Below, in pieces: positions 5,192-46,100 of a stretch of 48,084 bases of DNA (position 1 is the stretch's first letter; every line of letters starts with the position of its first letter). The notes under the pieces are model-generated. The model did no database searches. It saw only the letters and a list, made by a program, of their open reading frames with translations, and was not told the DNA's origin. The translations under genes and the position numbers were made by a program. Origin of the DNA: an uncultured Gammaproteobacteria bacterium (GTDB lineage Bacteria > Pseudomonadota > Gammaproteobacteria > SZUA-140); contig CALZHD010000010.1 of assembly GCA_945787155.1 (NCBI GenBank), forward strand, positions 1 through 48,084, in the 5' to 3' direction.

Positions 5192-5239
5192 AGCGATGAA
5201 TAATTCTGAGCTGATCCTTGTGGAGAGTGATAAGTCTGA

Positions 5240-5245
5240 ACTATA
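5240..5245 (-). promoter_or_regulatory. candidate extended -10 promoter for the hyp operon
   Basis: On the minus strand the motif TGCTATAGT fits an extended -10 (TGnTATAAT) about 50 nt upstream of hypC. A TTGATC half-site, which would also fit half an FNR box, sits about 24 nt farther upstream, too far for a standard -35. No sigma-54 -24/-12 motif was seen. This is inference from motif matching only. Confidence 0.3.
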
Positions 5246-5327
5246 GCATGGTGTGGTTTACGTATATATGATCAAGGCCGTTGAGGAGGCAAGGAGATGG
5301 GGGTCGATGGCTTCAAATAATTGATTT

Positions 5328-5359
5328 AGTGCTCACCCTGTGAAAATGGGGTGAGCGCT
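5328..5359 (-). terminator. hairpin after the aldolase/dehydrogenase gene
   Basis: GCTCACCC (5331-5338) pairs with GGGTGAGC (5349-5356), and the stem extends to 11 bp with one G-T wobble around a 10-nt loop. It sits between the aldolase stop (5392) and hypC. The minus-strand sequence after it lacks a real T tract, so it may be a weak terminator or an mRNA 3'-end stabiliser. Confidence 0.4.
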
Positions 5360-5391
5360 GTTACTGCATTATCCCTGCTGGTTAGATTTGA

Positions 5392-23650: not shown

Positions 23651-25627
23651 TCACGCCTCGCTCAGTTCAGGCTGCTTGATCGGTAACCAGAGGCGGAAGC
23701 GCGTACCTTTTCCCTCTTCACTTTCCACATCAATGCGTCCACGATGCTTTTCTATAATGCCAAAAGATACCGATAAGCCTAGGCCCATTCCTTTACCAAT
23801 TGGTTTGGTGGTAAAGAACGGGTCAAAGATCCGTTTCTGATCCTCCAGGGAGATTCCTTTTCCATTATCCTCGATTTCTATCCAGACCATATCATCGCTG
23901 CTTCCAGTACTGAGCGTAATGGTGCCTCTCTCCTCAATGGCGTGTCCCGCATTGACCAGCAAATTCATAATCACCTGATTAAGCTGGGATGGCATGCACT
24001 CTACCGCTGGTATGTCACCATACACTTTAATAATGTCGGCCTTGTATCTGAGTTCGTTGTTAACGATGTTCAGTGTGCTATCCAGCCCTTTATGGATGTC
24101 TACATGCTGCCATTCGGCCTGGTCGACATGGGAAAAATCCTTGAGATTCTGAACAATTTTTGTGACCCGGTCCAAACCCTCCTGAGACTCGCTCACCAGC
24201 TCAATCAGGTCTTCTTTCAAATACGGCACATCAATCTCTGCGGCGAGCGCAGCGACTGATTTAAATGCTTCTGGTGTTGAACTGCTATTGCAGGACTGTT
24301 CATAAACATCCAAAAGTCTAAGCAGGTCGTTAACATATTGTTGCAGGCTGCCAAGATTTGAGTTGACGAATCCTATCGGATTATTGATTTCATGGGCCAC
24401 GCCCGCCGCCAGCTGGCCAATGGACGCCATTTTTTCAGATTGCAGCAGCTGGCTCTGGGTTTGCTGCAGCTTGGCGATCAGGGTCTGCTGCTCTTCTTTT
24501 TCCCGCTTTAGTTCATCAGCGCTCTGTTCAAGGCGCTCATTAGCAGCGGCCAGTTCCTGAGTTCTGATTTTGACCGTCTCCTCGATCTCCCTGTTCCGGT
24601 TTTGCAATTCGCTGGAGCGTTTGGATATTATCCAGCTTAATCCGATCAGTAGTAGTGTCAGCAGGACCCCGGTAATCGCTGAAATGACAACAGGCATGTA
24701 ACGTGTATTTTCAAAGTGAATAACCTTCTTGATGCCGACGCTAAAATTGTGATTGCCGACCTGTAGTTCATAGTTTGAGTTAAATACCCTGAAAGATGTC
24801 TCTTCATGATCAGTGGTGTGATCGCTTTTCCAGGCAGCGAGTTCACCCCAATGCTTATTATTGATAGCATCGCGAGCTTTTAAAGACAGAGTATAATGTT
24901 GATCATCAGTGACGCCTTCAAAAAGTTTGTCGCTATCGATTCGTAGGCCAATGAGACCATTTACTGTTTGTTGTCTTTCGGTAAGGTTGTCCGGTGTTTT
25001 CTTACCAGTATATAGCGCAAAATAGGTCATGTAACTGGACTTTCCTTTAGCAGTATCCGGGGGGCTGGTGCTGGTAGCTGCAGAATCAATAGCGCTCTGA
25101 ATATAAGGTTTATGTGAGGCCATAGAGAAATAATCGAGTCCGATCTGTCGTGATGTGCGCGGTGAGAATGGTTCCAGGTAGAGTACCGGAAAGTAGCGCT
25201 GTTGCTGGTTAGCGAGAATAAGTTTTTCATCACGTTGTGTCGTAATGGCAAAGGTGATAAAGCCTTTCTCATGCATCGACGCCTCAAATGATGCTCTTTC
25301 CTGGTCGAGTATTAATGGCATGTAGTGGGTAGAGAGCAGGAAGTCATGTCGAGAGAGAATATCTTCGGATATAATTCTGAACTCGTCGGCTTCGACACTG
25401 GTAGAGGCATAAAACAGCGTGCGTATGCCGTGCGCCACCTCTTCCGTGGCATTTAGTTTCTGGAAAATGCTGTCTTTAATGAGTGTGACCTCGCCGTTGA
25501 AAATTTCCTTTTCATGGTGTATCACATTGTTGAAGGCAATGGTGATCAACGATCCAGTAAGGCCCAGGCCGACAATGAATGCCAGCGCATGTGTGGAAAT
25601 ATTGATTCGCCTAAAATCAGTCAGCAT
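23651..25627 (-). CDS. CHASE-domain sensor histidine kinase
   Basis: A 658-residue membrane kinase. TM1 is about residues 14-33, a periplasmic CHASE domain covers about 70-260 (RHDFLLSTHYMPL, YFPVLYLEPFSPR), and TM2 is about 308-330. A coiled coil (residues 335-395, glutamate and glutamine rich) leads to the HisKA-type box AAGVAHEINNPIGF with phospho-His at about 412. The ATPase domain has MNLLVNAGHAI, DNGKGIS and GMGLGLSVS. No receiver domain is attached and no response regulator adjoins it. The CHASE region is clearly related to that of the divergent GGDEF-EAL protein at 26530, so the two probably sense the same or similar ligands. Confidence 0.93.
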   Translation of the reverse strand: MLTDFRRINISTHALAFIVGLGLTGSLITIAFNNVIHHEKEIFNGEVTLIKDSIFQKLNATEEVAHGIRTLFYASTSVEADEFRIISEDILSRHDFLLSTHYMPLILDQERASFEASMHEKGFITFAITTQRDEKLILANQQQRYFPVLYLEPFSPRTSRQIGLDYFSMASHKPYIQSAIDSAATSTSPPDTAKGKSSYMTYFALYTGKKTPDNLTERQQTVNGLIGLRIDSDKLFEGVTDDQHYTLSLKARDAINNKHWGELAAWKSDHTTDHEETSFRVFNSNYELQVGNHNFSVGIKKVIHFENTRYMPVVISAITGVLLTLLLIGLSWIISKRSSELQNRNREIEETVKIRTQELAAANERLEQSADELKREKEEQQTLIAKLQQTQSQLLQSEKMASIGQLAAGVAHEINNPIGFVNSNLGSLQQYVNDLLRLLDVYEQSCNSSSTPEAFKSVAALAAEIDVPYLKEDLIELVSESQEGLDRVTKIVQNLKDFSHVDQAEWQHVDIHKGLDSTLNIVNNELRYKADIIKVYGDIPAVECMPSQLNQVIMNLLVNAGHAIEERGTITLSTGSSDDMVWIEIEDNGKGISLEDQKRIFDPFFTTKPIGKGMGLGLSVSFGIIEKHRGRIDVESEEGKGTRFRLWLPIKQPELSEA

Positions 25628-26529
25628 GATTATTGTTTTATGTTGAACGCTTTATGAATGATGTGTTTCGGTCATTCAACATCATTATTTCATTCATAGC
25701 GTTGATGACTGGAAGAGAGGTAAAGACACTGTTATGCCAATGTAGTCGACTGACATAAAATAAGCCCCCTCATTGTATGGTGCTAATGCTACTGCGCTTG
25801 TGATCGACAGTAGCAGTAGAGTCCTGATTAGCCCGTGCCAAAAGTATGCGACGTATTATCATGATGCCATCCTAAAATATATTAATAGAATGTTGGTCGG
25901 CGTTTATGCAGCTTAATGCTGCCGCCAAGATTCACATCCTGTGTCTCACAAGTATAATCATTATATTTACAAGGGTTATAAAGGTGTCTGTACATCTACT
26001 TGTATCGGGCATTCGGCGGTTACCTTTATTCGGGGTTTTCTTAAGGATCGTGAGGGGTAGGGTTAGCGTCATTGGCTGTTTGTAGCGATCAATAGTCCTT
26101 AGACCATTTCTAGAATAGACCAGTACAAGGCGTGACTTATTGCTGGCATTAGAAGGCTTATTAATTCGTGTTTCACAACACGCCATATAATTGTTTTAAG
26201 TCAAGCTTTTTCTGTGTGGCGCCGATAACTTGATAACCTCGCTTTAGACCTGGCAGCTCAGCTACGGGTGATGTAGCGGCTCTATGTATACGGCACGGTG
26301 ATTTATAAATGTTATTTATTCATTCAGTCATTTCATTCTCTAGAATGCTTGCGGTTATGCAGACCCTGGCTACGAATTACTCTTACGATTCGTCTTATTG
26401 CTTCGAGTATGAATGGAACGATATTATTCTTAATAGACGCTGGAAAATTTATGTTAACCAGCACCTGCTGCAACAATGTGGCATTGAATGTGCCCCTCAT
26501 ATAACCCGCAAAGCGATCAATGTGGAATA
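25628..26529. other. divergent intergenic region between two CHASE sensors
   Basis: About 900 bases separate the two divergent sensor genes. Open frames of 70-85 codons occur on both strands, including one ending at 26530 directly before the GGDEF-EAL ATG, but none has a ribosome site or recognisable product. Promoters for both genes must lie here. I see no strong palindrome or repeat. Confidence 0.45.
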
Positions 26530-29331
26530 ATGATGCGGACAAGAAGAGAAAAAAAAGCACTTCCACTGTTCACTATCGCGTTCATTGTAGGGATTTTTTC
26601 CACTACAAGCTTGGCCACTCTGGCCATTTTCAATCTTAAAAATCATGAAGAGGAGACTTATGCAAATGAAGTCGCTCTGGCAAGAGATCTCATCACTCAG
26701 CGGTTGAGCGGCGTTGATGAAGTTCTGCACAGTGTAAAAGCGCTGTTTGACGCATCTTCGCACGTTGATGCTAACGAGTTTCGAATTTTGTCAGAAAACG
26801 CTTTTGATAGGCATCAATACATTAACAGCTTTCTCTACATGCCGTTGGTGAGCGATAACGAGCGCGATGCATTTGAAAAAAAAATGCGGGATGAGGGGTA
26901 TTATACTTATGCCATTACTGAGAACAAGAATGGTCAACGGCAACTTTCTCCACCCAGGGAAAAATATTTTCCTATCATCTATATGGAGCCTTTTTCTCCC
27001 AAAAACGCGGCCAGCCTGGGATTTGATCTTCTATCTGAGACACAAAATGAAGCTTATATTATGCATGCGATCGATAGCAGCGAGAGCGTTATCCTCCCCA
27101 TAGATGCCCCTAATCACACGCAGCAACACATGCTTGTCAAGCCACTCTACGCCGGTAAGGATACGCCAAAAACAATTTCGGAGCGACGTCACACCATCAA
27201 CGGCATGATTGCATTATATATAGACAGTCAGAAAATAATTGATGGCATCTCTTTAGCTGAAAACATAAGTCTACGATTGGAAAATATTCCGCTGCTACAG
27301 TCACAGAACAATAAGCTCATGCTAGATCATAGGCAACCGCTCGAAGATTCAGACCGTCTGATACCTTTGATGGCACTTACTAATCAGAGTCAGTTCAACA
27401 TAGGTGCATTACAGTTTTCACTAATAATAGACAAACATATTGCCTGGAAGGAGACGCGCTACGAACAAGTGATCGCAGCCTTCCTTGTTGGCATTATTAT
27501 TACCGTCCTGTTATTACTGCTATCAAAAGCTATTAAGGACAGGGCTTCTGAGTTGCAACGTCGAAATCAGGAGATAAAAAACCTTGTGGATCAGCGCACA
27601 CGCGAGCTGGCACTTGAAAAAGATCGCGCTCATATCACGTTGGCCTCAATCGGTGATGGGGTAATTACTACCAATTCAGATGGAGAGGTAGATTACATAA
27701 ACCCTGCTGCAGAGATTATTACCGGCTGGGGTCGGACCGATGCAATACAAAAACCGATCGATGAAATCTTTGTTGTCATCAATGAAAAAACGAAAAAAAT
27801 ACAAGCCAATCCGGTTTACAAATGCCTGACTAGCAAAGAGGCGGTAATCCTGCCTGAGTATTCTGCCGTCATCAATCAGGAAAACAATCAGGCGCAGGCC
27901 GTTGAGGCCACGGTTGCACCTATCGTAGATGACAATAACAAGCTGGGCGGTACGGTACTGGTATTTCATGATGTCAGCGAGGCGCGCAAAATGTCGCAAC
28001 AAATGACATACCAGGCGACGCATGATGCATTGACGGGTTTGCCGAACCGGGTTCTTCTGATAGACAGGCTCAAACAGGCACTGAGCCGCGCACCCTGGAA
28101 CAAAAAATCAGTCGCCGTGCTTTTTCTCGATCTCGACCGTTTCAAAATAGTCAATGACACCCTCGGTCACGAGGCAGGTGACGAACTATTATGCCAGATT
28201 GCGGATCGAATGGAAAACTGTATTCGTGAGGGTGATACCATCAGTCGTCTGGGCGGAGATGAGTTTGTCATCGTGCTCACCGATCTGGCCGCAGAAGAAG
28301 ATATACCAGTGGTCGCGAAAAAATTTGTTGATGCACTCGCGCACCCTTTTTCGTTGAATGAACAGGAGTTTTTTATCAGCGCCAGCATCGGCATCAGCCT
28401 GTTTCCTGCTCATGGAGACGATCCATTTACCTTGATGAAAAACGCAGACATTGCGATGTATCAGGCCAAGAATTCTGGGCGTAATAATTTTCTGTTTTAT
28501 GATGCCGACATGAATTCAATTGATAGCAAGCGGCTCAGCCTTGAGACAGACTTGCGCCGCGCACTGGAAAGAGATGAACTTGAACTCTATTATCAACCGC
28601 AGATTGATATCAAAACCAGCACGATCATCGGCGCAGAGGCGTTGTTGCGCTGGAATCACAGCTCGCTGGGGCTGGTATCCCCGATGGACTTTATCCCTCT
28701 GGCAGAAGAGACGGGCTTGATTGTACCGATTGGACAATGGGTGATGGAGCAAGCCTGCCAGCAAGTTAACGCCTGGCACCATCAAGGACTCAAACCCATC
28801 CACATTGCGGTTAACATCGCTCATCGTCAATTCAACAGCGGTAGTCTGATGCTAGATGTCAAGCGAGCATTGAGCAAATCCGGGCTTGAGGCACGATACC
28901 TGGAACTCGAGCTGACAGAAGGCATTCTCGCAGAAAACTCTCACAGCGCCATCAATACCTTGAATGACCTGAAGAAGATGGGGATAAAACTCTCGATTGA
29001 TGATTTCGGCACAGGTTATTCTTCATTCGCTTACCTGAAACGATTTCCGCTAAATGCGCTCAAGGTGGACCGTTGTTTTGTTAAAGATATCACTCAAAAC
29101 AAGGATGATGCGGCAATCTGCTCTGCCATTATTGCCATGGCGCACAATCTCAATCTGCACGTAGTAGCCGAGGGGGTAGAAGACGAGGAACAACTGGCCT
29201 TTCTGAAACAGCACGATTGCGATTTTGTGCAGGGGTTCTATTATAGCCGTCCTGTGCCCGCGAAAAATTTTGCTGAAATGCTAGGTCAAGCGGGTGCTAT
29301 GCCTGATAGATCATTACAGTTGATCGATTGA
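26530..29331 (+). CDS. CHASE-PAS-GGDEF-EAL c-di-GMP enzyme
   Basis: A 933-residue membrane protein that can both make and break c-di-GMP. TM1 is about residues 12-35, CHASE about 60-245, TM2 about 308-330, and PAS about 360-475 (LASIGDGVITTNSDG). GGDEF covers about 490-650, with RLGGDEF at about 573 and an inhibitory-site RxxD (REGD) five residues before it. EAL covers about 665-915, with EALLRW, VNIAHRQF, ELELTEG, IDDFGTGYSS, LKVDR and AEGVED; all expected catalytic residues look present. I chose ATG 26530, although ATG 26533 is equally possible; no strong ribosome site is seen. It is divergent from the related CHASE kinase. Confidence 0.94.
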   Translation: MMRTRREKKALPLFTIAFIVGIFSTTSLATLAIFNLKNHEEETYANEVALARDLITQRLSGVDEVLHSVKALFDASSHVDANEFRILSENAFDRHQYINSFLYMPLVSDNERDAFEKKMRDEGYYTYAITENKNGQRQLSPPREKYFPIIYMEPFSPKNAASLGFDLLSETQNEAYIMHAIDSSESVILPIDAPNHTQQHMLVKPLYAGKDTPKTISERRHTINGMIALYIDSQKIIDGISLAENISLRLENIPLLQSQNNKLMLDHRQPLEDSDRLIPLMALTNQSQFNIGALQFSLIIDKHIAWKETRYEQVIAAFLVGIIITVLLLLLSKAIKDRASELQRRNQEIKNLVDQRTRELALEKDRAHITLASIGDGVITTNSDGEVDYINPAAEIITGWGRTDAIQKPIDEIFVVINEKTKKIQANPVYKCLTSKEAVILPEYSAVINQENNQAQAVEATVAPIVDDNNKLGGTVLVFHDVSEARKMSQQMTYQATHDALTGLPNRVLLIDRLKQALSRAPWNKKSVAVLFLDLDRFKIVNDTLGHEAGDELLCQIADRMENCIREGDTISRLGGDEFVIVLTDLAAEEDIPVVAKKFVDALAHPFSLNEQEFFISASIGISLFPAHGDDPFTLMKNADIAMYQAKNSGRNNFLFYDADMNSIDSKRLSLETDLRRALERDELELYYQPQIDIKTSTIIGAEALLRWNHSSLGLVSPMDFIPLAEETGLIVPIGQWVMEQACQQVNAWHHQGLKPIHIAVNIAHRQFNSGSLMLDVKRALSKSGLEARYLELELTEGILAENSHSAINTLNDLKKMGIKLSIDDFGTGYSSFAYLKRFPLNALKVDRCFVKDITQNKDDAAICSAIIAMAHNLNLHVVAEGVEDEEQLAFLKQHDCDFVQGFYYSRPVPAKNFAEMLGQAGAMPDRSLQLID

Positions 29332-29729: not shown

Positions 29730-32426
29730 ATGAAAAAACCGGAAATACCCACCAACGAAGCGGTGCGTCACCAGTCCTTGTGCGAACTTGCAATACTCGA
29801 TACCGCTGCGGAGGCGCGTTTCGACCGCATCACGCGCGTTGCGCAGCGCCACTTCAACGTCCCTATCGCACTGGTCAGCCTGGTTGATTCGGAGCGACAG
29901 TGGTTCAAGTCACGCCAGGGGCTGGATGCCAGCGAGACGCCGCGAGATATTTCGTTCTGCGGTCATGCCATTCTGGCAGACGATATCTTTTACATCGCCA
30001 ATACCCTGGAGGATCCGCGCTTTGCCGATAACCCGTTGGTGATGGGTGGTCCTAAAATCCGCTTCTATGCAGGCGCTCCGCTGCATGCGCCGGATGGGCA
30101 GCGTATCGGTACGCTATGCATTATCGACGACAAGCCGCGGACATTTTCACAGGATGAGTTGACCGTCTTGCGTGACCTGGCGGATGCAGTCGAAGCCGAA
30201 CTGGAGCGCGGTCATCTCCTGTTGGCGGAAACGGCGCTGGCGGATAATGAAGCACGCATCCGTGCCATTGTAGATATGGTGCTCGATGGAATTATTACCA
30301 TCGATTCATACGGTAGGGTGCAGACCTTCAATCCGGCGGCGGAGAGGATTTTTGGCTATGTTGCGACTGAAGTGGTGGGGCATAATGTTAACATGCTGAT
30401 GCCGGCACCCTATGTCGAAGAGCATGATAGCTACCTGCAAAATTACCTGGCCACTGGCGACAAAAAGGTGATTGGTATCGGTCGGGAAGTGACCGGTCAG
30501 CGCAAGGACGGTTCGACTTTCCCGATGGAGCTGGCGGTGAGCGAGATGAAGGTGAATGGTGATCGTATGTTCACCGGCATTGTGCGTGATATTACTGAGC
30601 GTAAGCGCATCGAATCGAATCTACGTTCTAGTGAGAACCGTATGCGCGCCGTGATCGACACGGTAGTCGATGGCATCATTACGATTAAAGACACTGGGAT
30701 GATCCAGACTGCCAATCCCGCGACAGCGAGTATCTTTGGTTACGATATCGATGAAATGCTTGGTCACAACGTCAACATGCTGATGCCCGAACCTTACCAC
30801 AATGCCCATGACGGTTATCTGCATAATTATCTGACCACTGGCGATAAGAAAGTGATCGGCATTGGCCGTGAGGTTACCGGCCTGCGTAAGGACGGTTCGA
30901 CTTTTCCCATGGAGCTGGCGGTGAGCGAGATGGAAGTCAATGGCGAGCGCATGTTCACTGGCATTGTACGCGACATCACTGAGCGCAAGCGACTGGATCT
31001 GCTGAAGAGTGAGTTCGTCTCCACCGTCAGTCATGAGCTGCGCACACCGTTGACTTCTATCCGCGGTGCACTGGGGCTGGTGTTGGGCAAGTCTGCCGAA
31101 TCATTGCCAAACAGTGTGCGGCAGATGCTGAAGATGGCAGAGCGCAATAGCGAACGGCTGACGCTACTGATCAACGACATCCTTGACCTGGAGAAGATTG
31201 AGTCGGGACGACTCGAGTTCGAACTTGCCGAGCTGGATCTTGTAGCGCTGGCAAGACGGGCGGTGGAGGACAGCGAGGGCTATGCGCACCAGCACCAGGT
31301 GCAACTGTGTTTGCAGACGAATTTGACAACGGCGCCGGTGCGCGGCGACACGCATCGTCTGTTGCAGGTATTTGCCAATTTGATTTCCAATGCGGTGAAA
31401 TATTCTCCTCAAGATGGTACGGTAGAAATTTTAGTGACGTCCAATGATGGTGGTTTTCGCGTGGCGGTGTGCGACCATGGCCCAGGTATACCCGCCGCAT
31501 TTCGCAGTCGGATCTTCCAGCGCTTTGCTCAGGCCGATAGTTCGGATACCCGCGAGAAGGGAGGCACCGGTTTGGGACTCAGCATCTCTCAGGCGATTAT
31601 CGAACGCCACGAGGGCAGAATTGGTTACCAATCGGAAGAGGGAGAGGGAACGGTGTTTCATTTTGATCTTCCGGCTGTGGAAGCGGTCATCAAGGAGGGG
31701 GCTGGAAATGAGCGCTGTATCCGAGTGCTCATCTGCGAAGATAATGCCGACGTGGCCTCTATTCTGGCCGAGATGTTGAAGCCAGAGGGAATGGTCAGCG
31801 ATATCGCTGCCACCGCTGAGGCTGCCCGTACACTGCTGGCCAAACATGCTTACCGTTTGCTGCTGCTTGACCTGACGCTACCTGATGCCGACGGCCTGCA
31901 GTTTCTGCGCGAACTGCGCAGCGTTGCCGCTACCGTAGATCTGCCGGTGATCGTCGTTTCCGGTCGAGCCGAGGAGGGTCGCATTGCCTTTAATGGGGAT
32001 GCGATGGCCGTCGTTGACTGGCTGCAGAAACCGTTGGAACTTGAGCGTCTGAAAAGGGCGCTCCATGAGGTTCTACGACACAACTATCGACCGTGCATCC
32101 TGCATGTGGAGGATGATCCAGATATCATTCAGATCACACAGGTATTGCTGGAGGAGACGGCCGAACTTAGTCATGTCGCCACCGTGCGGGGCGCACGAGA
32201 GATGCTGGCTGCACAGAATTTCGATCTGGTTATTTTAGACCTCGGTCTGGCCGATGGCTCCGGGTTGGAGCTGCTCGATGAGCTCAAGGGGGGCTGTCCA
32301 GTGGTGATTTTCTCGGCTCAGATACCGGATCGAGAAATCACCGAACAGGTGACGGCTGCGCTTACTAAGTCGATGACCAGTAATGAGCAGTTGCTTGAAA
32401 CTATCAATAAAATTTTGCGAGGCTAG
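29730..32426 (+). CDS. GAF-PAS-PAS hybrid histidine kinase with two receivers; FixL-type PAS
   Basis: An 898-residue protein without membrane segments. GAF is about residues 20-165 (ISFCGHAIL, IRFYAGAPLHAP, GTLCIID). Two tandem PAS domains follow (about 172-295 and 300-422), then HisKA (STVSHELRTPL, His435), HATPase (LISNAVKYS, GTGLGLSIS) and two receivers (LLLLDLTLPD, LVILDLGLAD). Both PAS domains keep the FixL pattern HD.Y, then GIGREVTG 17 residues on: His232/Arg252 and His360/Arg380 align with the FixL haem ligand His200 and Arg220. They are near copies of each other. I used ATG 29730 (MKKPEIPTNE) over 29682. It is the first gene of a three-gene relay operon. Confidence 0.93.
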   Translation: MKKPEIPTNEAVRHQSLCELAILDTAAEARFDRITRVAQRHFNVPIALVSLVDSERQWFKSRQGLDASETPRDISFCGHAILADDIFYIANTLEDPRFADNPLVMGGPKIRFYAGAPLHAPDGQRIGTLCIIDDKPRTFSQDELTVLRDLADAVEAELERGHLLLAETALADNEARIRAIVDMVLDGIITIDSYGRVQTFNPAAERIFGYVATEVVGHNVNMLMPAPYVEEHDSYLQNYLATGDKKVIGIGREVTGQRKDGSTFPMELAVSEMKVNGDRMFTGIVRDITERKRIESNLRSSENRMRAVIDTVVDGIITIKDTGMIQTANPATASIFGYDIDEMLGHNVNMLMPEPYHNAHDGYLHNYLTTGDKKVIGIGREVTGLRKDGSTFPMELAVSEMEVNGERMFTGIVRDITERKRLDLLKSEFVSTVSHELRTPLTSIRGALGLVLGKSAESLPNSVRQMLKMAERNSERLTLLINDILDLEKIESGRLEFELAELDLVALARRAVEDSEGYAHQHQVQLCLQTNLTTAPVRGDTHRLLQVFANLISNAVKYSPQDGTVEILVTSNDGGFRVAVCDHGPGIPAAFRSRIFQRFAQADSSDTREKGGTGLGLSISQAIIERHEGRIGYQSEEGEGTVFHFDLPAVEAVIKEGAGNERCIRVLICEDNADVASILAEMLKPEGMVSDIAATAEAARTLLAKHAYRLLLLDLTLPDADGLQFLRELRSVAATVDLPVIVVSGRAEEGRIAFNGDAMAVVDWLQKPLELERLKRALHEVLRHNYRPCILHVEDDPDIIQITQVLLEETAELSHVATVRGAREMLAAQNFDLVILDLGLADGSGLELLDELKGGCPVVIFSAQIPDREITEQVTAALTKSMTSNEQLLETINKILRG

Positions 32427-32432
32427 CGAGTC

Positions 32433-32816
32433 ATGGATGAAAATTTACGGATCTTATATGTAGAAGACGATGCGGATATTCGGCTTGTCGCCGAGATGGC
32501 GCTAGAGGGTGAAGGCTTTGAGCTGGTGATCTGCGAGTCGGGCCAGGAGGCGCTTAACACGGCGGTAGATCAGAAGCCGGATGTGTTGTTACTCGATGTC
32601 ATGATGCCGGGCATGGATGGTCCGACCACGCTACAGAAACTGCGTGAGCTGCCTCACCTTGTGACGACGCCGGTCATTTTCATGACCGCCAAGGTGCAGT
32701 CTGAGGAGGTGGCGCAATACAAATCTATGGGGGCAATAGGCGTGATCAGCAAACCTTTTGATCCGATGACCCTGGCTGAACAGATTCGTAGCCTCGTGGA
32801 GCAGAAGCATGCCTGA
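32433..32816 (+). CDS. Single-domain response regulator (CheY-like)
   Basis: A stand-alone 127-residue receiver: acidic pair YVEDDAD (about residues 10-16), phospho-acceptor in [11 protein letters not shown] (Asp about 54), Thr/Ala switch in FMTAK and the conserved lysine in ISKPFDP. It lies 6 nt after the hybrid kinase and overlaps the next gene by 8 nt. It probably shuttles phosphate between the kinase and the HPt domain of the following diguanylate cyclase. Confidence 0.95.
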
Positions 32817-34470
32817 AGTGACATCAGACAAGACGGCAAAACTGCGCGAGTTGCAGAGGCGTTTCGGCGCGCAGTTGCCGCAGCGACTGGCGGATATCCA
32901 ACACCATTGGCAGGCGTGCCTGGTGGGGGACGATAACGAAGAGTTGTACCGCCTGGTGCACAGCCTGGCCGGGGCGGCGGGTACGTTCGGATTTCATCGC
33001 CTGGGTGAACAGGCGCGGGCGCTGGAACAGCTGTTATTACGGAATAAGGGGAGTATCAAGCGCTGCCCGGAATTACCGGTCATCGAAGATGTGATTGCAG
33101 ACCTGTTGCTGTTCACGGTGCAGCAGCCAGATCAGCTCGCATCGGCTGACTCAGAGGCGTCTTTTCAGGAAGCGACAGGTAAAGAAAGGGGCGAGTCACT
33201 GGTGTATCTGTTGGAAGACGATGTCAGCCAGGCGCGAGAAGCTGCCGTTCAGTTACAATATTTTGGTTATGAGATTAAGATTTTCCACAGAACCGCAGCT
33301 TTGAAAGCCGCCATGGCGCAGGAAGTGCCGGCTGCGTTGGTGGCGGATATCCATCTTTCTGAAGGCGACCAAGCAGGCCCTGATATTGTCGCCGAACTAC
33401 GTGACGGATTGACGCGTGATGTGCCGGTCATATTTGTGTCCGGGTCTGATAGCTGGCAGGACCGCCTGGCCGTCGTGCGCGCGGGTGGTCAGGCCTATCT
33501 CTCCAAACCGATTAACTTCAGCGTGCTGGTTGAGCAGTTAGATGTGGTCACTGGCAATAAGCAAGAGGCGCCTTATCGGATACTGGTGGTTGACGATACG
33601 CCGCTATTGGCGCAGCACTATGCCGCCGTGCTGGAGGCCGCTGGTATGCGCATCAAGACTGTTAATGACCCGGCGCAGCTACTGGATGTGCTGCTTATGT
33701 TTAGTCCGGATCTTATTCTGATGGATATTTTTATGCCAGGCTGCAGTGGAGTGGAGGCTGCCCAGGTGATTCGGCAGCAGTCGATTTATGCCAACCTGCC
33801 GATCGTCTATCTCTCTACGGAAACATCGCTGACTCAGCAACTGGCAGCACTACAGCTCGGCGGTGGCGACGACTTTTTACAGAAACCGATCAGCGACACC
33901 TATCTGACTGATGCGGTGCACATACGGGCTAAACGCTTCCGTGAGCTGAGCGCGCTGATGAATCAGGATGGGCTCACCGGCCTGCTTAACCACATCAACC
34001 TGAAACTCGCACTAGAGCGTGAAATTGCGCAGGCGCAGCGGCGATCCAGTGCGCTGAGCTTTGTGATGTTGGATATAGACCATTTCAAATCCGTTAACGA
34101 TAGTTATGGGCACCTCATCGGCGATCGTGTCATCAAGAGTCTGGCTCGCCTGCTCAGCCATCGGCTGCGCAAAGGCGATGTCGCAGCACGCTATGGCGGC
34201 GAAGAGTTCGCCCTCATTCTGCCGGATACCTCGCTCGAGCTTGCCCAGGGTTTGCTTGATGATCTGCGACGGCAGTTCTCTGAAATTTCCCATGCTCATG
34301 AGCACGGTGAATTCACCGTCACTTTCAGTGCTGGTATCGCGGCCTGCCCGCCACAGGCGGAAATGCAGGCCCTGATCGCCGCGGCGGATAGAGCCCTCTA
34401 CCAGGCGAAACATGCGGGACGCAATCAGGTGGTGCTTGATGATGATGGAACGTCAGTAAACACGTTATAA
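32809..34470 (+). CDS. HPt-REC-REC-GGDEF response regulator (diguanylate cyclase)
   Basis: A 553-residue cytoplasmic output protein. An HPt domain (about 5-105) has the phospho-His in [14 protein letters not shown] (about His46). Receiver 1 (about 128-245; [17 protein letters not shown]) and receiver 2 (about 258-375; [18 protein letters not shown]) precede a GGDEF domain (about 380-545) with RYGGEEF and an inhibitory-site RKGD five residues upstream. The layout is like PleD with an added HPt. c-di-GMP production should depend on the phosphorelay from the upstream hybrid kinase and free receiver. Confidence 0.95.
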
Positions 34471-34581: not shown

Positions 34582-36312
34582 CTAATGGACGACCGCTAAT
34601 CTGCGACGCCTGATCTGTCCTGCCATGTACAGGGCAAGGAGAAGGAACATCAGGTTCACTGCTCCACTACCGCCACTTGCAGCCGTTGCAGTGCTGGCGT
34701 TTGATGTACCCACGCCGCCGGGATCAACAATCACACCATTGGCCATGCCGTCTTCATCATTGGCACCACCATCCTCGATCTCAATCTGTACACACCAGTG
34801 TCCTGCGGTGAGACCCGGTAACCAGCGCGCATCACCGGGTAATGGGCACAGGCCTTGCTCGCCGCTGGTTGAATAAAGTTTGTTGTTGTTGTCTTCTACG
34901 AAAGTACTCCAGCCGTGCACCGCGGTGAACTTCCGATAGACTGGATTGGCCGGTATCGCGCTCCGTTGCGGGATAACGAAGCGGGCTGTCTGGCCAACAT
35001 TGGGCAGGTCGTGCACTTCAAAGTCAAAGATGCCGCCAGGCGTGGCGTAATCGGGGTCAGATTTCAGGGCATCAACGGCCTGAAAGTCTGCATCACTCAA
35101 CTGCATGCCACCTTTTTCACGCTGCAGGGCGTAGCGTCCCAGTGTCACGCGCATGCCCGCTTCAGTTCTACCAAGGTAACGACTATTGTTACCCGGCACC
35201 ACGGGTAAAATATTGCTTTGCGCAATGTTATCCAGGTAATCCGGGATACCATCAAAATCTGTATCGACCATCCCCTCCGCAGCATCGTTAATGCCGTCAT
35301 CGTCAGAATCTATGCTGCTTGAAAGTGTTGGCACGGTTTCAACCACATGGATCAATATATGTTGATAGCCGCTCAGCGGCACAGAGGCATTATCGTATAC
35401 CCTGGCTGATACCTGATAAACACCTGATGCTAACGCGGATGGGTCGAAGGTAAAGCTACCCTCATCAACATCCAGATCAACGAGGGAGGCCGGGGCCGTA
35501 CTCCATTCCAGGGTGAGGCTATCGCCTGAATTCGGATCGGTTGCGACGGCCTGAACCACAATATTACCGCCGGTTTTTGTGACTCTGGCAATATTTACGC
35601 CACCATTTTGTGTGACAGAGAGGCTCACATCGGGGGGCTCATTCACCGCAGGCGTTGCGCTGGCGACATCACCGTCACGCACCGCCCAGGCAAAAAATTT
35701 AAGATCATTGATACCGTCGTAACCCTGGTAGCCATCCTCAAAACACCAGACTGTGCCGTATACATTCGAATATCTCAATCCCAGCGCGTGGACCTGATCC
35801 CATTGAAAGTTGATAAATGTCGCGCCATCTGCGCTGGTGTTAATGGGAAACTGATCTACCGGTCTTGACCCACTACTCACCCAATTTTTGGTACCATCCA
35901 GGTTGTACAGCGAGGTGTTACCGAGAATTTCATACCACAGGTAGGCAAACTCGGAGTGACTGGTATCGACGTTGTAGCCACGATCTGTTGTGCCATTCAC
36001 ACTATACGATTTATTGAGTTGATCGCCGGGGATCTTAAATGCCGGCAGTCGCCAGTCATCATAGCCGCCAAATTCTAGCGCTGCCACCCATGCCTGGGCC
36101 TCGGTCCAGGTCATCATACCGTCTTCGTCACCCAGCGTACCGCTGGAGGCGGAAAACTGGGTGGCCGCATAATTGGCATCCTTTAGCCAGGTGATATTCT
36201 GGTCTGAATCATAAATCATGCCGTTACCGCGGTCATACAGGGCGGCGTGCGCGCTGGTAGAAAGCACCATGGTGAGTGCCGATACTGAAACGAGAGCGGA
36301 TTTTTTGTTCAT
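34582..36312 (-). CDS. Secreted DUF1566-type protein with GlyGly-CTERM-like tail
   Basis: A 576-residue exported protein. It has a signal peptide (VSALTMVLSTSAHA) and a DUF1566/Lcl-type domain (about 28-215; GNGMIYDSDQNITWL, MTWTEAQAWVAAL, GYDDWRLP). An Ig-like segment (about 225-330) follows, then thrombospondin-3-like calcium repeats (DSDDDGINDAAEG, DTDFDGIPDYLD). A domain like those placed before protein-sorting tags comes next (about 370-540). The C-terminus has GGSGAVNL, a hydrophobic helix and RRRR, fitting a GlyGly-CTERM signal for rhombosortase processing. No rhombosortase gene is in the window. It lies 103 nt after another secreted protein on the same strand. Function is unknown. Confidence 0.8.
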   Translation of the reverse strand: MNKKSALVSVSALTMVLSTSAHAALYDRGNGMIYDSDQNITWLKDANYAATQFSASSGTLGDEDGMMTWTEAQAWVAALEFGGYDDWRLPAFKIPGDQLNKSYSVNGTTDRGYNVDTSHSEFAYLWYEILGNTSLYNLDGTKNWVSSGSRPVDQFPINTSADGATFINFQWDQVHALGLRYSNVYGTVWCFEDGYQGYDGINDLKFFAWAVRDGDVASATPAVNEPPDVSLSVTQNGGVNIARVTKTGGNIVVQAVATDPNSGDSLTLEWSTAPASLVDLDVDEGSFTFDPSALASGVYQVSARVYDNASVPLSGYQHILIHVVETVPTLSSSIDSDDDGINDAAEGMVDTDFDGIPDYLDNIAQSNILPVVPGNNSRYLGRTEAGMRVTLGRYALQREKGGMQLSDADFQAVDALKSDPDYATPGGIFDFEVHDLPNVGQTARFVIPQRSAIPANPVYRKFTAVHGWSTFVEDNNNKLYSTSGEQGLCPLPGDARWLPGLTAGHWCVQIEIEDGGANDEDGMANGVIVDPGGVGTSNASTATAASGGSGAVNLMFLLLALYMAGQIRRRRLAVVH

Positions 36313-36415: not shown

Positions 36416-37546
36416 TTAATTTGGCATCGGTACCACAACACCACCCCCGTCACACCAGGGAGTGCCTCCACATGGGTTTTGCGTTGGGTCCATATAGCCG
36501 GACCAGTCGATCTCATCAAGCTCAAAACTGCCGCCATTGGAATAGACATAGGTCCCTTTGTCGTAAATGCGGCCGTTCCCCATATTCCATGTCGCAAAAT
36601 CAGCCACCACATCTCTAAAACGGATATTTGGGCGGTCATTGTCCCAGCCTTTTCCGCGGGTAAAGGTAAACTGGCCCGCATCTAACACCGCTTTGCCCGC
36701 CTGGACATCGGTAACGTAGTCGAAATCGCCAGTCGCATCTGCAGGGGTAGGATTGGTAGGTATTACATCCTTAAGCGTTAACTTATTGACAAACACATCG
36801 ATCGCATTGAAATTACTGCTTGCAGCAAGCGTGGTGCCAAAAGCGTCATAATTACCGTTGCTCATATCGGCCTTAAACTCCATCAATATATCCGCGGTGT
36901 TGATGACCTGGGTGATTTTAGGTTTTTCCATGGTGGCGGATTTTTCAAACTCCATCGACACTTCACCGTCGGATAAGACCATTTTCATCGCGCTGCCTTT
37001 TGGATTTTGATAACCGTTCGCCTGAAGATACTTGTTGTGGCCAAGCGGATTACAGGCGAATCCCATCAGTCCAAAGCAGTCCTGAGTGGTTCGATTAAAA
37101 CCTGTATCGAGATTCTCACTCGGTATAAAACCTGCTCCATCGCCTACAACAGTGGTGCTCTGGTTAAGCTCCGCAAGAAACTTCTGATCGGTTAGTGCGA
37201 AATCGGGGTTAGTGGGGCCAAACTTGGTAAAGTACTCGAGCGCGAAACCGTCGGCGGGGTTACCAACCACGTTGTGGAAATATTTTTCACCCGCAATCGT
37301 CACAATTTCCTGCACCCAGTCGGTAGGCGTGGCTGACTCACCGTCCGGCGTACCACTTGTATCCGTTTCGCAGTGTAAATCACCAAAGCCACCGCACAGC
37401 TGTCCGATTTCATTTGCTGTGTCGGGGTTGCTATTGATATTGGTAAAGCCGAATGTGAATTCGGCGTTCGCAGGTTGCATCCAGAAGAGCGTGGCCGTGC
37501 AGATCAAAACCCTTGAATACAACATGGTACTTGAATGTAAACCCAT
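36416..37546 (-). CDS. Secreted protein of unknown function
   Basis: I do not recognise this protein. From ATG 37546 (MGLHSST, GGATCGGTGG upstream) it has 376 residues; in-frame ATGs at 37567 and 37525 are also possible. A signal peptide ends at QPANA. The mature part begins EFTFGFTNIN, is rich in Asp, Asn, Gly and Thr, and has three cysteine pairs (LCGGFGDLHC, DCFGLMGFAC, PCGGTPWC) that could form disulfides. There is no transmembrane anchor or sorting tail. Co-orientation with the DUF1566 protein suggests a shared surface or extracellular role, which is inference. Confidence 0.7.
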   Translation of the reverse strand: MGLHSSTMLYSRVLICTATLFWMQPANAEFTFGFTNINSNPDTANEIGQLCGGFGDLHCETDTSGTPDGESATPTDWVQEIVTIAGEKYFHNVVGNPADGFALEYFTKFGPTNPDFALTDQKFLAELNQSTTVVGDGAGFIPSENLDTGFNRTTQDCFGLMGFACNPLGHNKYLQANGYQNPKGSAMKMVLSDGEVSMEFEKSATMEKPKITQVINTADILMEFKADMSNGNYDAFGTTLAASSNFNAIDVFVNKLTLKDVIPTNPTPADATGDFDYVTDVQAGKAVLDAGQFTFTRGKGWDNDRPNIRFRDVVADFATWNMGNGRIYDKGTYVYSNGGSFELDEIDWSGYMDPTQNPCGGTPWCDGGGVVVPMPN

Positions 37547-38091
37547 ATCCACCGATCCAAATAACAACTATAAGAAATGTTACTTTTATATGTCGGCAGT
37601 GTTGTGAAGTATTTGATATCAATTTCTACAAGCAGATCGCCTACGGTGGTGTCCATTGCTAACCTGTTGATTTGTCAGGCTCAGTCGGCTTGTAAAACAA
37701 TGGTGTGCTGATATTGGAAGAGTAAATTTTTATGTTAAAAATCAACGATCCTACTCTTTAGCTAATTTAACTGGTCAGCTGGCATCGATTTTGTCTGAAG
37801 AAGCAAAGAGTATCAGCCTGAAAAATATTGTAGGAAGTGGATGATTAATTAAATAGTGCAAGAAGCTCCGGCAGGGCGCGGGCGACTAGCAGCTGCTTTT
37901 TGCTGTGCAGAGAAGAAGGTGCAGCGATTGCATTTGTTAACGAATACATGCGACCTGTTGGCCAGGTGTTACGCAACAATATACAAACGAGATAAATTTT
38001 GCGTTTGCTTGTCCAGGATTAGAAATTTTCGATGCCAGGACAGCAGGGGTAAATGAGACAGCGCCTTTTACCTGGGATGAGCTGAAATTAA
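37547..38091. other. intergenic region with possible coding relic
   Basis: About 545 bases. From about 37672 to 37843 the plus strand is open and ends with a protein-like stretch, SLANLTGQLASILSEEAKSI, but there is no start codon or ribosome site, so it may be the end of a decayed gene. The remainder up to the tRNA-Leu fragment shows nothing I can identify. Confidence 0.35.
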
Positions 38092-39274: not shown

Positions 39275-42200
39275 ATGGGTCCAATGACTGATATGAAAGC
39301 ATCTGGTTGCGATATTCTGGTCATTGATGACGAAATATATTATCTGCAACTGCTGAATCAACTCCTTTCGAAAGAAGGTTATGTGGTCCGCACTGTGGAA
39401 AGCCCACGACTGGCCATTGACTCTGCCTTGGCTCAGATCCCGAGCCTGATACTGTTGGACGTAAGGATGCCTGATATAGATGGATTTGAGGTCTGTCGAC
39501 GCCTAAAGCGGGAAAAACGGACGCGAGACGTCCCGATTATCTTTATCTGCGCACTGCAAGACACGCAAGGCAGGATTCGGGCCTTTGAGGCCGGTGGAGT
39601 GGATTTTATCTCCAAGCCATTGCAGATGCCTGAAGTTATGGCAAGAGTGCGAACCCATCTGACCCTGCGCAACATGCAGTTGCACTTGAATGAGCTTGTT
39701 GCCGAGCGCACGACTGAATTGACTGTCAGCAATAAATTATTAGCGGCTGAAACCAGGGAAATGAGCCGGCAATGTAGCTTGAACTACGCTATCTTGAATT
39801 CACTTGACAGTCACCTTGCTGCCATCGACCAGGACGGTGAGATCATCGCTGTTAACAATAGCTGGAACGAATTTGGCACAGCGAATAACGCGCTCTCAGT
39901 AGAGAAGATTGCTATCGGTGTCAATTATCTCGACGCTATTCTGTCAGAAACGAGCGATGAGGTGCTGCGCGCCATCGAAGGAATCCGCTCCGTTCTGGAC
40001 GGCAGGTTGGCCAGGTTCGACATGGAATACCCCTGCCTTAGCCTGTCAGAGAAAAAATGGTTCTCCATAGCAGTGATGCCAATGAGAACTGAAGAAGGTG
40101 GCGCTGTGGTGACACACACTGATATCACTGAGCGCAAAAAAATGGAAGAAGTGCTCGCTAAAAGCGAAGCGCATTACCGCGCCCTGATTGATAATTCACT
40201 GGTTGGGGCCTTCAATATCAATCTCAGTGGTGAATTCCTTTATGTTAATGCTGCAATGGCGCAGATGTTTGATTTTGATAGCACTGAGCTTATGCTTGAA
40301 GAGGGCTCACTGTCACGCTGGATGGATCTGCAACAGCGAGAAAAAATGCTGGCTGAACTTCAGCAGCATAACAATGTGAGTACTCTTGAAGCAAACTTGA
40401 TCACCCATAGCGGTCGACACATCGATGTGCTGTTGTCTGCGAAGCTACTCGAAAATGTCATCTCCGGCATAGTGATGGATATCACAGCGACAAAGTTGGT
40501 AAAAAAAAAGCATTGCAAGAGTGTGAGCAACGGTTCCACGCCACTTTTGAGCTGGCGGCCGTCGGTATTGCCCACGTTTCGCCAGCGGGGGAAATTCTGC
40601 GTATCAACCAGAAGTACTGCGACATCATTGGCTATACGCAGCAGGACGCCCTGAAACTAAGATTCGAGGACGTCACCTATCCGGAAGACCTCAATACCGA
40701 CTTCGATTATTTTCGTCAGTTGCTGGTGGGAAACGGTAGCAGCTATAGCATTGAGAAGCGATACATTCGTAAAAATGGCGATTTGATCTGGGTTAATTTG
40801 ACGGTCACTCTGTTGCGCGATGAGTCAGCGCAGCCTAAATATTTCGTCGTTGCTGTAGAGGATATTACCGCGCGTAAAAATGCGGAAGAAGCACTTAAGG
40901 AATGCAATGAACGTTTCCAGATTGGGTTTGATAGCGCCAACATTGCAATTTGTCTGGTAGACATGGATGGCTGTTTTATAAAGGTCAATGAGCAGATGAG
41001 CGCAATGTATGGTTACAGCAAAGAAGCGCTTGAAACCATGGCCGTTAAAGACATCATTTATCCAGAGGATCTGGGGGTTAGCGCACCGTTTAACCAGCGA
41101 GTATTATCAGGCGAGATTAGCCATGAAAAGGTGAGTAAACGATATTTGCACAAAGATGGGCACACTGTTTGGGGAGAGGTTTCCAGTTCGGTAGTCAAAG
41201 ATACTCGGGGTGATCCATTATATGGTATGTATTATATAATAGACATCACTGAGCGTAATCAAGCTGAGATTAGGTTACAGAAGTGCGAAGAACTATACAA
41301 ATCAACCTTGAATGATTTGCTCGCAGGTGTGGTTGTCCATTCCGGCGATTCAAGTATTTTGCTAAATAATCCTGAAGCGAAAAATATTTTAGGGCTGACA
41401 CAAGAGCAATTGTATGGAAAGAAGGCGATTGATCCTGCATGGAACTTTGTGCATGAAGATTCAACTATTATGAATATTGAGGATTATCCTATAAGCAAAG
41501 TGATATCAACAAAGAAAGCACTCTATAATTATGTGCTCGGTATCAATAAGCCTGATAAAAACTCTATAACATGGGTGATTGTTAACGCGATTCCAGTATT
41601 AACCGATGATAATAGTGTGGATAAAGTGGTCATAAATTTTGTAGACATTTCCAATCGCAAACAGGTAGAAGAAAACAGGGATCAGCTAATGCATGATGTT
41701 ACTGAACGACTCAAAGAATCCAGATGTATATACACCATTGTGAATTCAATAAGAACCAGTGAGTCTCTTGATGAGCTATTTCACGATACGATGGTGGCGA
41801 TCCCACTGGGATGGCAATACCCAGATATTACCCGCTGCAAACTACGATACAACGATGATGAGTGGGTATCTGAACCCTTCGAAGAGACGGTCTGGAAGCA
41901 GTCGAGTGGTATTATTGTTGATAATAAAATCTGTGGCAGTATCGAGGTTTATTATATCGAGAAAATGCCGCTGCAGGATGAAGGTCCGTTCATCTCTCAT
42001 GAGCGCCATCTTCTCGACAGTATTGCACATACATTAAGTGAAGCGATCGAACGTAAGCTAGCAACGGAATTATTGAAAGACAGTGAAACCCGTTTAAGAA
42101 TGATATATGACTATGCGCCTATTATGATCTATGCTTTTGATGCTAAAGGTCGGTGTGTCATGTGGAATAAAGAGTGTGAAAGAGTATTTGGCTGGACCGC

Positions 42201-43131
42201 CGAGGAAGTGTTTTCTTATGAAACCCCCCTGGGGTTATTTTATCCCGATCCGGTCATTCAAAAGCAAATTGTCCAGAGTATGTTAAAGCCGGATAATACT
42301 CTAAGAGAGTGGTATCCAGTAAGCAAAAATGGTTTAAGGATAGCCTGTTTATGGGCTTGTTTTAAGTTGCCAGATGGAAATGTTATTAGTCTTGGACAAG
42401 ACATTACGAAACGCAAACAGGCGGAACAAAAACTCAATGAATACCAGCAAAGACTAAAATCACTGGCTGTTCAGCTCACCCTTGCCGAGGAACAGGAACG
42501 TCGGCGTATTGCGGCTGATCTACATGATAATGTTGGCCAGACGCTTGCATTGACGCGCCTGCAGCTGGTGACTGCACGTAAGGACGTGGTGAAGGATAGC
42601 AAACAAGATGTGCTATTCGACGATATTTCAAAATCCTTGTTAGAGGCGATACAGGATACGCGGCATCTGATTTTTGAATTGAGCTCACCTTCATTGAATG
42701 AATTTGGTCTGGGTGCTGCGATCAGAGAATGGATGGATGAAAATGTCGCAAAGAAGCATGGGCTTAAAGTCAATTTTTTCGACCATGCACAAGGCGTGTT
42801 GCTGGGCAAAGATCTTCGCGCCATACTGTTTCGGAATGTACGTGAACTGCTTACTAATGCGATCAAGCATGCACAGGCAAATTCCGTATCCGTCTGGCTG
42901 GAAAATAAGGCAGGCCAGTTGAGCATTTCGATTGAGGATGACGGTGTCGGTTTTGATCCTGAACAAACATTGCAAGGCGTTAATGCTACGGGAGGGTTCG
43001 GATTATTTAGTGTCCAGGAACGGATGAATGACCTTGGTGGAAAAATGGAAATTTTGTCGCAGCCGGGAAAAGGCTGTAGGATTGTTATGCGACTGTCTGT
43101 CAAGGATCAAAGCTCAGGAGAGGATGCGTGA
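39275..43131 (+). CDS. REC-multi-PAS hybrid kinase, split at an A9 run (frameshift)
   Basis: Two frames make one protein of about 1,285 residues. Frame 1 (39275-40654) has a receiver (LLDVRMPDIDG, FISKPLQ), a coiled coil and two PAS domains. Its homology ends at DITATKLVKKK. Frame 2 resumes at once as ALQECEQRFHATF (from 40510) with two PAS/PAC units, a third PAS-like unit, a GAF-like region, a last PAS (APIMIYAFDA), HisKA_3 (RRRIAADLHDNVGQTLA) and HATPase (LLTNAIKHA, DDGVGF). The joint is gta-aaa-aaa-aag, so A_AAA_AAG is in frame and a -1 slip restores the protein. It may be a mutation, sequencing error or real recoding. Start ATG 39275 or 39284. It overlaps the regulator gene by one base. 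Confidence 0.85.
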
Positions 43132-46100
43132 TGAATAAGATAAAAGTCTTGCTAGTTGATGATCATGCCGTGCTACGTAAGGGGATGGCTCTGCTTCTAG
43201 GGGCGGAAGATGACATAGTGATTGTCGGTGAGGCGGGTGACGGTGAGGAAGCCATCTTAAAAGCACGGGCACTGCAACCCGATGTGGTGGTGATGGATAT
43301 CACTATGCCGCAGCTAAACGGCATTGAGGCGACTCGGGAAATTGTCGCTGAATTGCCAAATAGCAAGGTTATTGCACTTTCTATTCACTCCGCCAGGCGC
43401 TTCGTCGATGATATGCTGGGTGCTGGGGCGGTTGGCTATCTGCTCAAAGAAAGTGTTCCGGAGGAGCTGTTGCAGGGGATCCATGCGGTCATGCGCGGAG
43501 ACATGTTCCTCAGTAGCGCAACCACCGACACGGTGATCTCGGCCTATCTTGAAGGAAAGTCCAATGAATATTCTGAGGACAGCCTGGCAACAGGCTCTGA
43601 GATTCTGCGCACCAAACTACAGTCACCCCCACTTACGTCGGACATAGTGCCACGCACACGCCTGGTCGAACTGCTTGAGGCCGGACGGAACAGGCCGTTG
43701 ACACTGGTCTCGGCACCCGCCGGTTACGGCAAGAGTATCTTGATTAGCAGCTGGCTGGAGGGCTGTGACTGGCCCAGCGTCTGGCTTTCGCTAGACGCGG
43801 ATGATAGCGATCTGCGTCAGTTTTTAAATTATTTCGTGGCTGCAGTTCAAGGTGAGTATTCGGCTATCTGTGAGCACACGCTGAGTCTTGCCAGGAGTCA
43901 AAATCTGCCGTCTCTGAGTACGTTAATAGCAAGCTTAAGTAACGAGCTGGAGGAGCTTGATCAACCTATGTTTGTGGTGCTTGATGACTATCACTCCATT
44001 GAAGTGAATTCCCCTGTTAACGACTTGATCCGCCAGCTGCTGGCGCGACCACCACTGCATCTACATCTGGTGATTATTAGCCGGCGTGATCCGTCGTTGT
44101 CGCTGGTCAACCTGCGTGCTCAGGGGCAGGTTTCTGAAATCCGCACGCAGGATCTGTGCTTTACTACGACGGAAACACGAGCGCTACTGGAAAAGATTGT
44201 GGTATTCAGCCCCAGTGAGGAGGCCCTGGTCAAATTGCAGGAGGAGGTAGAAGGGTGGGTGGTTGGCCTGCGTCTGGTCTCTATGGCGATGCGCTCAATC
44301 GATGATCTGGATAATTTTTTCAAAAACCTGCATGGTGGCGTCCAGCAAACGCTAGAGTATCTGTTCTATGAAGTGCTGGCCCGCCAATCAGCGCAAATGC
44401 AGGAGTGGTTGTTAAAGAGCGCGATACTGGATAGCTTCTGTCGGCCGCTGTGTGATGCAATCTGTGCTGCCGAACTCGGTACGGAGGCTGTTAATTTCAA
44501 CGCTGACAGATTTATCGCCGAGCTGTCCAGCAATAATCTCTTCGCCATTCCATTGGATACCCAAGGTGAGTGGTTTCGTTATCACCATTTGTTTCAGCAG
44601 TTGTTGCGGCAAGAGCTGCAACGGCGCATGACGCCGGTGGAGATTGCCGGGCTGCACTCCCGTGCCAGTGAGTGGTTTGAAAGCGAGGGTTTGATAGGAA
44701 AAAAAGCTACTTATCATGCGCTGATCGCAGGGAACAACGAACGAGCGGGACAGATTGTCGAACGAAACTGGCGCAGCATAATGAGTCAGGATAAATGGTA
44801 TGTCGTCGAGATGTGGTTGTCCCAGTTATCAGATTCTGTGGTGCAGGCGCGGCCACAATTGTTGCTGGCGCGAGCATCGATTTATTATCATCAGCTTGAT
44901 TACGCGGCGCTGCCAACGGTTTTAGATCAAATCGATGAACTTATGGGCGGTGATGCTGAAGCACACGAATTTACAGACGAAGTAAAAATGTTTCGCGGAT
45001 TTTGCGCGTTTTTCGAAAATGATGGCGCACGCGCCCTGGAGTACGTTGAACAAGCACTGGAGAAACATCCTGTAACAGGTTTCTGGTTGAGAGGTGATGC
45101 CGAGGTTCTATTCGGGCTGGCAGGTCAAATGGAAGATCAGAAGCAGCGGGTAATGAGCATCTTGATTACATGGCTCAATGATTCGGCGTCGCTTGATCCT
45201 TTGCGTGAAACTCGCCTGTTACTGGTCTTGACGTACATTCATTATATTGACGCTGATCTGGCTAGTGCTGAACAATACATTCCACGCCAGCGCGAAGTCG
45301 CCAGGGCGCACGGCCTGGAAAATGCACTGGCATGGTGTGACTATCTTGAGGGCCTCATTCATCTGCAACGTGGTGAGTTGGACGCTGCGATTCGACTGCT
45401 TGAGAAGGCAAGTCAGCGTAAGCATTTCCATTACGCGCGCGCGGCCGTTGGCACACTAGCTGCGCTAATCTTCTCGTACCAGATGTCCGGGCAGTCAGAG
45501 CAGGCTGAAGCAACGTTAAAATCACTTGATCAATTCATCGCGGCCGGTGACTCGCCTTTTGCTAGTATTGCCGCAGCCTGTCGGGCACGTTTGCGCTTGA
45601 TGCAGGGACAGTCGGGGGCAGCCTTTCACTGGTTGAAATTGAATCCTCTTCCACCTGTCGGAGTGATGCTTTTCTGGCTGGAAACCCCATGTCTCACCCG
45701 TTGTGAGATTCTAATGATGGAAGGAACGGTCAACAGCCTTAAGAAGGCGGAAGAACATCTACAAGAATACCTGGCGATGAATCAGGCCCATCACAACGCT
45801 TGTCAGCAGATTTCAATACTGGCATTGCTGGCGATGGTGCTGGCAAAGCAGGGGAAGACTACAGCTGCCCGGTCTGCCCTGGCAGAGGCACTGATGCTGG
45901 CTCGCCCCGGTGGTTTTATCTTCCCGTTTCTAGTGCTTGGTCAGCCGATGGCTGAGTTACTCAGGCAGTTGCCCAGGCAGAATGCCGATATAGCCTTCGT
46001 CAAACAAGTTTTGTCTGCTTTTGGCGAAGCTAAATTGAAGGCTGAAACCGTTGCAATTACCAGCGCCAAACCGGGTCAGGCAAGCCAGCTGTTGATTGAA

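Follow-up and report, generated by a model that had tools for sequence, protein, structure and literature searches.

A tandem pair of FixL-type PAS domains in a hybrid histidine kinase predicted to control c-di-GMP through an HPt relay

In the window, the whole 48,084-nucleotide stretch of gammaproteobacterial DNA analysed here, we found a soluble hybrid sensor histidine kinase of 898 amino acids (29730..32426, forward strand) that carries two tandem PAS domains, both of which are unmistakably homologues of the haem PAS domain of FixL. We consider it reasonably likely that the two domains act as a tandem haem pair that regulates c-di-GMP through an HPt relay; the haem, the oxygen, the sign of the response and the route of the phosphate are the parts of this reading that we infer.

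The kinase and its PAS pair

The kinase has the layout GAF-PAS1-PAS2-HisKA-HATPase-REC-REC, and its start at 29730 is backed by an MK(K/E)PEIP start conserved in the homologous loci L040 and L033. All domains are on the forward strand and were assigned by Pfam. The GAF domain (residues 28-158, 29811..30203; PF01590, E 3e-20) is followed by PAS1 (residues 176-288, 30255..30593), with His232 at 30423-30425 and Arg252 at 30483-30485, and by PAS2 (residues ~304-416, 30639..30977), with His360 at 30807-30809 and Arg380 at 30867-30869. The HisKA dimerisation and phosphoacceptor domain, which contains HELRTP (residues 426-493, 31005..31208; PF00512), starts ~10 residues past PAS2, so that the kinase output directly follows a haem-type PAS domain as in FixL. 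The HATPase_c kinase domain (residues 539-649, 31344..31676; PF02518, E 1e-29) precedes a first C-terminal receiver (residues 666-778, 31725..32063; PF00072) and a second one (residues ~790-890, 32097..32399), which is a second PF00072 stretch with the signature LHVEDDPD...LDLGLADGSG...LTKS. The original prediction had overlooked the two receivers that make this kinase a hybrid.

FixL structures were the top phmmer matches for both PAS1 (E 2.5e-38) and PAS2 (E 7.2e-35), and both alignments are ungapped through the pocket. FixL His200 and Arg220 (B. japonicum numbering) correspond to His232 and Arg252 in PAS1 and to His360 and Arg380 in PAS2, with the same spacing of 20 residues in all cases. 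The hydrophobic distal pocket is also kept in both copies, together with its Arg (Val 215, Ile 216, Arg 220, Leu 236 and Val 238), where the Val at position 238 matches S. meliloti FixL. The main departure from FixL, shared by both copies, is Asn in place of Arg206, a residue that contacts a haem propionate in FixL, and Lys in place of His214. Asn and Lys are the commonest residues at these two positions among the FixL-type PAS domains that we collected, a set gathered by the His/Arg motif and thus invariant for His and Arg by construction. Within the host genome, the motif was absent from the six other PAS-like matches examined (L003-L008), and one further protein, L002, has it. The FixL top matches and the absence of the motif from those six PAS-like matches put the predicted tandem of FixL-type domains, with His and Arg at these positions, far beyond chance.

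An AlphaFold2 model of residues 166-429, calculated from 14 aligned proteins of the window and the loci, had a mean pLDDT of 81 and a pTM of 0.51, a modest value that leaves the mutual orientation of PAS1 and PAS2 weakly predicted and unreadable from the model. In each domain, the model places the histidine inside the F helix (His232 and His360, model residues 67 and 195, in helices 63-77 and 191-205) and the arginine on the G strand (Arg252 and Arg380, model residues 87 and 215, on strands 87-92 and 212-220). PAS2 (model residues 149-264) superposes without gaps on 1dp6 154-269 over 116 of 116 residues (Z 20.7, 1.4 Å), and PAS1 (18-124) on 1xj4 151-257 over 107 of 107 residues (Z 19.7, 1.6 Å). 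Consequently, each His falls on position 200 of FixL and each Arg on position 220, and the F-helix placement that the original prediction called for is borne out in silico. Over the full model length, Foldseek ranked 8js5/8js6, the FixL construct with two PAS domains, first.

Age, selection and copy number of the PAS units

At the DNA level, PAS1 and PAS2 form a single ungapped direct repeat of 296 nt with 76% identity and a spacing of 384 nt, or 128 codons. Across 126 codons, identity between the two copies is 72% at the protein level and 71% at the DNA level. At the 91 codons where both have the same amino acid, the same codon is used 41 times while 39.5 are expected from the codon usage of the gene. 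This agreement at chance level means that the DNA likeness adds nothing beyond the protein likeness and that the duplication is old; the description of the domains as close copies therefore holds for the protein and gains nothing from the DNA. A slight excess of codon matches (16 of 26) is confined to the last 28 codons of the pair. We rejected a recent duplication or strong gene conversion of the pair because synonymous agreement is at chance over its whole length. In the orthologue of G001, a genome of the same genus, the two PAS copies are 87% alike, compared with 86% (PAS1) and 88% (PAS2) to their orthologues in the window; this may hint at gene conversion in that genome, which the 60 codons concerned are too few to settle.

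Both domains are under purifying selection. Relative to the G001 orthologue, PAS1 has a dN/dS of 0.086 and PAS2 one of 0.087, values like those of the remaining kinase domains (0.04-0.14). Decay of one copy was considered and is ruled out by the value of ~0.09 in each.

We surveyed other genomes with a strict DNA pattern that required two complete His/Arg motifs at a distance of 123-133 codons, which makes the following counts lower bounds. Tandem FixL-type pairs occur in at least 5 of 369 gammaproteobacterial genomes and in at least 7 of 299 genomes of a phylum sample, the host genome included in both, and the reversed control pattern had no match in either survey. At every locus found by the pattern, the period is exactly 128 residues even though 123-133 was permitted. 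FixL-type pairs are also present in an alphaproteobacterial MAG (L081) and in Azospirillum (L113, period 130). Three FixL-type PAS domains, with His and Arg in all of them, are found in the kinase of L119 (4830-7721; G003, same genus), at spacings of 129 and 128, and in succession in the kinase of L127/L130 (L127 in G474), at spacings of 128-129 residues. The tandem pair is thus uncommon but recurrent. The singularity that the arrangement had seemed to have is lost in part, since tandem and triple FixL-type PAS domains recur in other proteobacteria and multi-haem Aer2 receptors are known (PMC13401364).

In the tree, the PAS copies within each of the genomes G003, G318 and G187 cluster in their own lineage, and G040, a sister of G187, has one copy, indicating that the doubling arose more than once; whether PAS1 and PAS2 of the window are sisters is left open by the tree. 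The orthologues L034 and L035 have one canonical FixL-type PAS domain immediately before HisKA. The L033 orthologue (4781-7108), which is 68% identical, has a single PAS domain with a shortened F-helix region, no His, and His in place of Arg. We tentatively propose, as a possibility well short of an even chance, that multi-haem sensors have evolved repeatedly by tandem copying of FixL-type PAS units at a constant period of 128 residues, and that the copy number (one to three) would tune their oxygen sensitivity or cooperativity, here driving c-di-GMP. A separate observation is an 868-aa open frame at L128 with two FixL-type PAS domains and a GGDEF motif, each by motif match only; it is possibly a direct two-haem diguanylate cyclase.

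The relay cassette and its neighbourhood

Downstream of the kinase gene, and few bases apart or overlapping, are genes for a free single-domain receiver (32433..32816, forward strand; PF00072, E 8e-27) and an HPt-REC-REC-GGDEF diguanylate cyclase (32809..34470, forward strand; Pfam, with PF00990 at E 1.5e-46). The cyclase has an intact RYGGEEF active site, an RKGD I-site of the RxxD product-inhibition type, and the HPt histidine. The kinase and the cyclase together contain four receivers in addition to the separate free one, and all parts of a predicted HPt phosphorelay are encoded together: a hybrid kinase with receiver, an HPt domain, and a terminal receiver with output. The kinase neighbours are the lone receiver and the HPt-REC-REC-GGDEF protein, with no adjacent FixJ-type (REC-LuxR) partner; a LuxR-type regulator lies ~11 kb downstream of the kinase, in another cluster.

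Homologues of the HPt-REC-REC-GGDEF protein adjoin homologous kinases in G001, L123, L033, L034 and L121, and more distant ones do so in L052, L079, L045, L065, L044 and L067. The retention of this cassette in other genomes supports a relay to c-di-GMP, and the kinase probably controls the adjoining c-di-GMP synthase. The sensory front ends differ between these kinases: that of L121, from another family, also has two FixL-type PAS domains, that of L034 has one, and those of L052, L079, L045, L044 and L067 have no His/Arg motif. What these cassettes share would thus be the relay, to which the haem PAS units would provide a variable input. In L033, the cassette is retained beside a PAS domain that lacks the His/Arg pair, indicating that the relay can run without haem. 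The L033 receiver is fused to the HPt-REC-REC-GGDEF protein.

The surroundings in the window contain further signalling genes. Directly upstream of the kinase are a CHASE-PAS-GGDEF-EAL protein (26488-29331, forward strand) and a divergent CHASE histidine kinase (23651-25627, reverse strand), a pair that makes for a dense c-di-GMP neighbourhood. Positions 43128-46325 encode a 1065-aa response regulator with a REC - MalT-like TPR - LuxR (GerE) layout, adjoined by a multi-PAS HisKA_3 kinase (40513-43131) and a REC-PAS protein (39275-40654). Two apparently secreted proteins on the reverse strand (34582-36312 and 36416-37567) had no Pfam match at E 1e-8. The host genome encodes ferrochelatase, and ccoN had no match in the draft genome, which is 95% complete, a result uninformative for microaerobic physiology.

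Mechanism, alternatives and comparison with known sensors

Haem binding in the FixL/DosP PAS cluster depends chiefly on the F-helix His (PMC10468136), and in microaerobic conditions FixL phosphorylates its partner (PMC7888657). By analogy, PAS1 and PAS2 would each hold one b-type haem through His232 and His360, and Arg252 and Arg380 on the G strands would stabilise bound oxygen. Oxygen binding may alter the pocket and, through the helices that link PAS1, PAS2 and HisKA, restrain autophosphorylation as in FixL, and low oxygen would release it. The HisKA histidine would then hand its phosphate to the receivers of the kinase itself, from where it would reach the HPt domain of the neighbouring gene and then the receivers of the GGDEF protein, whose phosphorylation would change c-di-GMP synthesis. 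The free receiver may act as a sink or as an output of its own. PAS2, which adjoins HisKA, is the likely direct switch, and PAS1 is probably a modulator. The sequence, the predicted structure and the retained HPt-REC-REC-GGDEF cassette fit the two-haem c-di-GMP sensor of the original prediction, while a close orthologue without the haem ligand, L033, weighs against it, as do Asn at position 206 and Lys at 214 in both copies, the motif-less kinases of several cassettes (L052, L045, L044 and L067) and the lack of a ccoN match.

The division of labour could go further, with PAS2 as the sole working haem sensor and PAS1, haem-bound or not, as a structural or tuning copy for dimerisation or as a linker. 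This is less probable than the two-haem reading yet the most serious of the alternatives, as L034 and L035 keep their single canonical unit right before HisKA and the PAS domain that precedes the haem PAS in FixL itself is haem-free. In addition, Vibrio vulnificus Aer2 has three haem-binding PAS domains with unequal signalling roles (PMC13401364). However, PAS1 has every pocket residue and is under a constraint equal to that of PAS2.

It is improbable, in our view, that the pair binds haem but senses NO, CO, haem availability or redox state instead of oxygen. Several diatomic ligands do bind to haem PAS domains, and DosP of E. coli is responsive to the redox state of its haem (PMC4263535), but both copies have the distal Arg by which FixL stabilises Fe(II)-O2. 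A still more remote reading, which we regard as very improbable, is that neither domain is haem-bound in vivo, the FixL motif being inherited and the pockets holding something else or nothing. The loss in the F-helix region that the L033 orthologue tolerates would suit it, as would the absence of the invariant His from 40% of the FixL PAS cluster (PMC10468136); set against this, both His/Arg pairs and both pockets of the window kinase are intact and under purifying selection. Two tandem haem PAS domains are our preferred reading.

Multi-haem PAS receptors (Aer2), hybrid FixL and haem oxygen sensors that act on c-di-GMP are already known. In the open-access literature that we searched, we found no described case of tandem FixL-type haem PAS domains, which is not proof of absence, nor their combination with a hybrid kinase and an HPt-linked cyclase. 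FixL, with one b-type haem (PMC8396549), is the textbook one-haem oxygen sensor, and the related kinases form a natural copy-number set, with zero canonical haem PAS units in L033, one in L034 and L035, two in the window, G001 and L121, and three in L119 and L127. This set would let one ask whether extra haems widen the range, provide cooperativity or are spare parts.

The haem PAS of FixL from Bradyrhizobium and Sinorhizobium (1dp6, 1d06, 8js5) is ~47-53% identical to the domains described here, with the same His/Arg pair and distal pocket, and in both kinases a PAS pair is followed by HisKA. In FixL, however, the single haem PAS follows a non-haem PAS and the partner is FixJ, whereas the window kinase has haem residues in both PAS domains, a GAF domain first, two receivers last and a cyclase partner. 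Hybrid FixL of Rhizobium (hFixL-FxkR) is likewise a FixL-type sensor whose kinase carries a receiver (PMC7888657; reference 54 in PMC4263535), but it signals to the transcription regulator FxkR, while the window kinase has two haem-type PAS domains and no adjacent DNA-binding regulator. Aer2 is also an oxygen sensor with more than one haem PAS domain, two in V. cholerae and three in V. vulnificus, with unequal signalling roles (PMC13401364); its PAS domains are a separate haem-PAS lineage unrelated to the FixL/DosP cluster (PMC10468136), and it signals through a chemoreceptor domain. DosP (EcDOS) and DosC (YddV) of E. coli tie haem oxygen sensing to c-di-GMP (PMC4263535), and the DosP PAS belongs to the PAS cluster of FixL (PMC10468136), but these proteins have one haem domain and their output within the same polypeptide, with no phosphorelay. 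If the proposed mechanism is true, oxygen control of c-di-GMP would extend from such single-protein sensors to an HPt phosphorelay.
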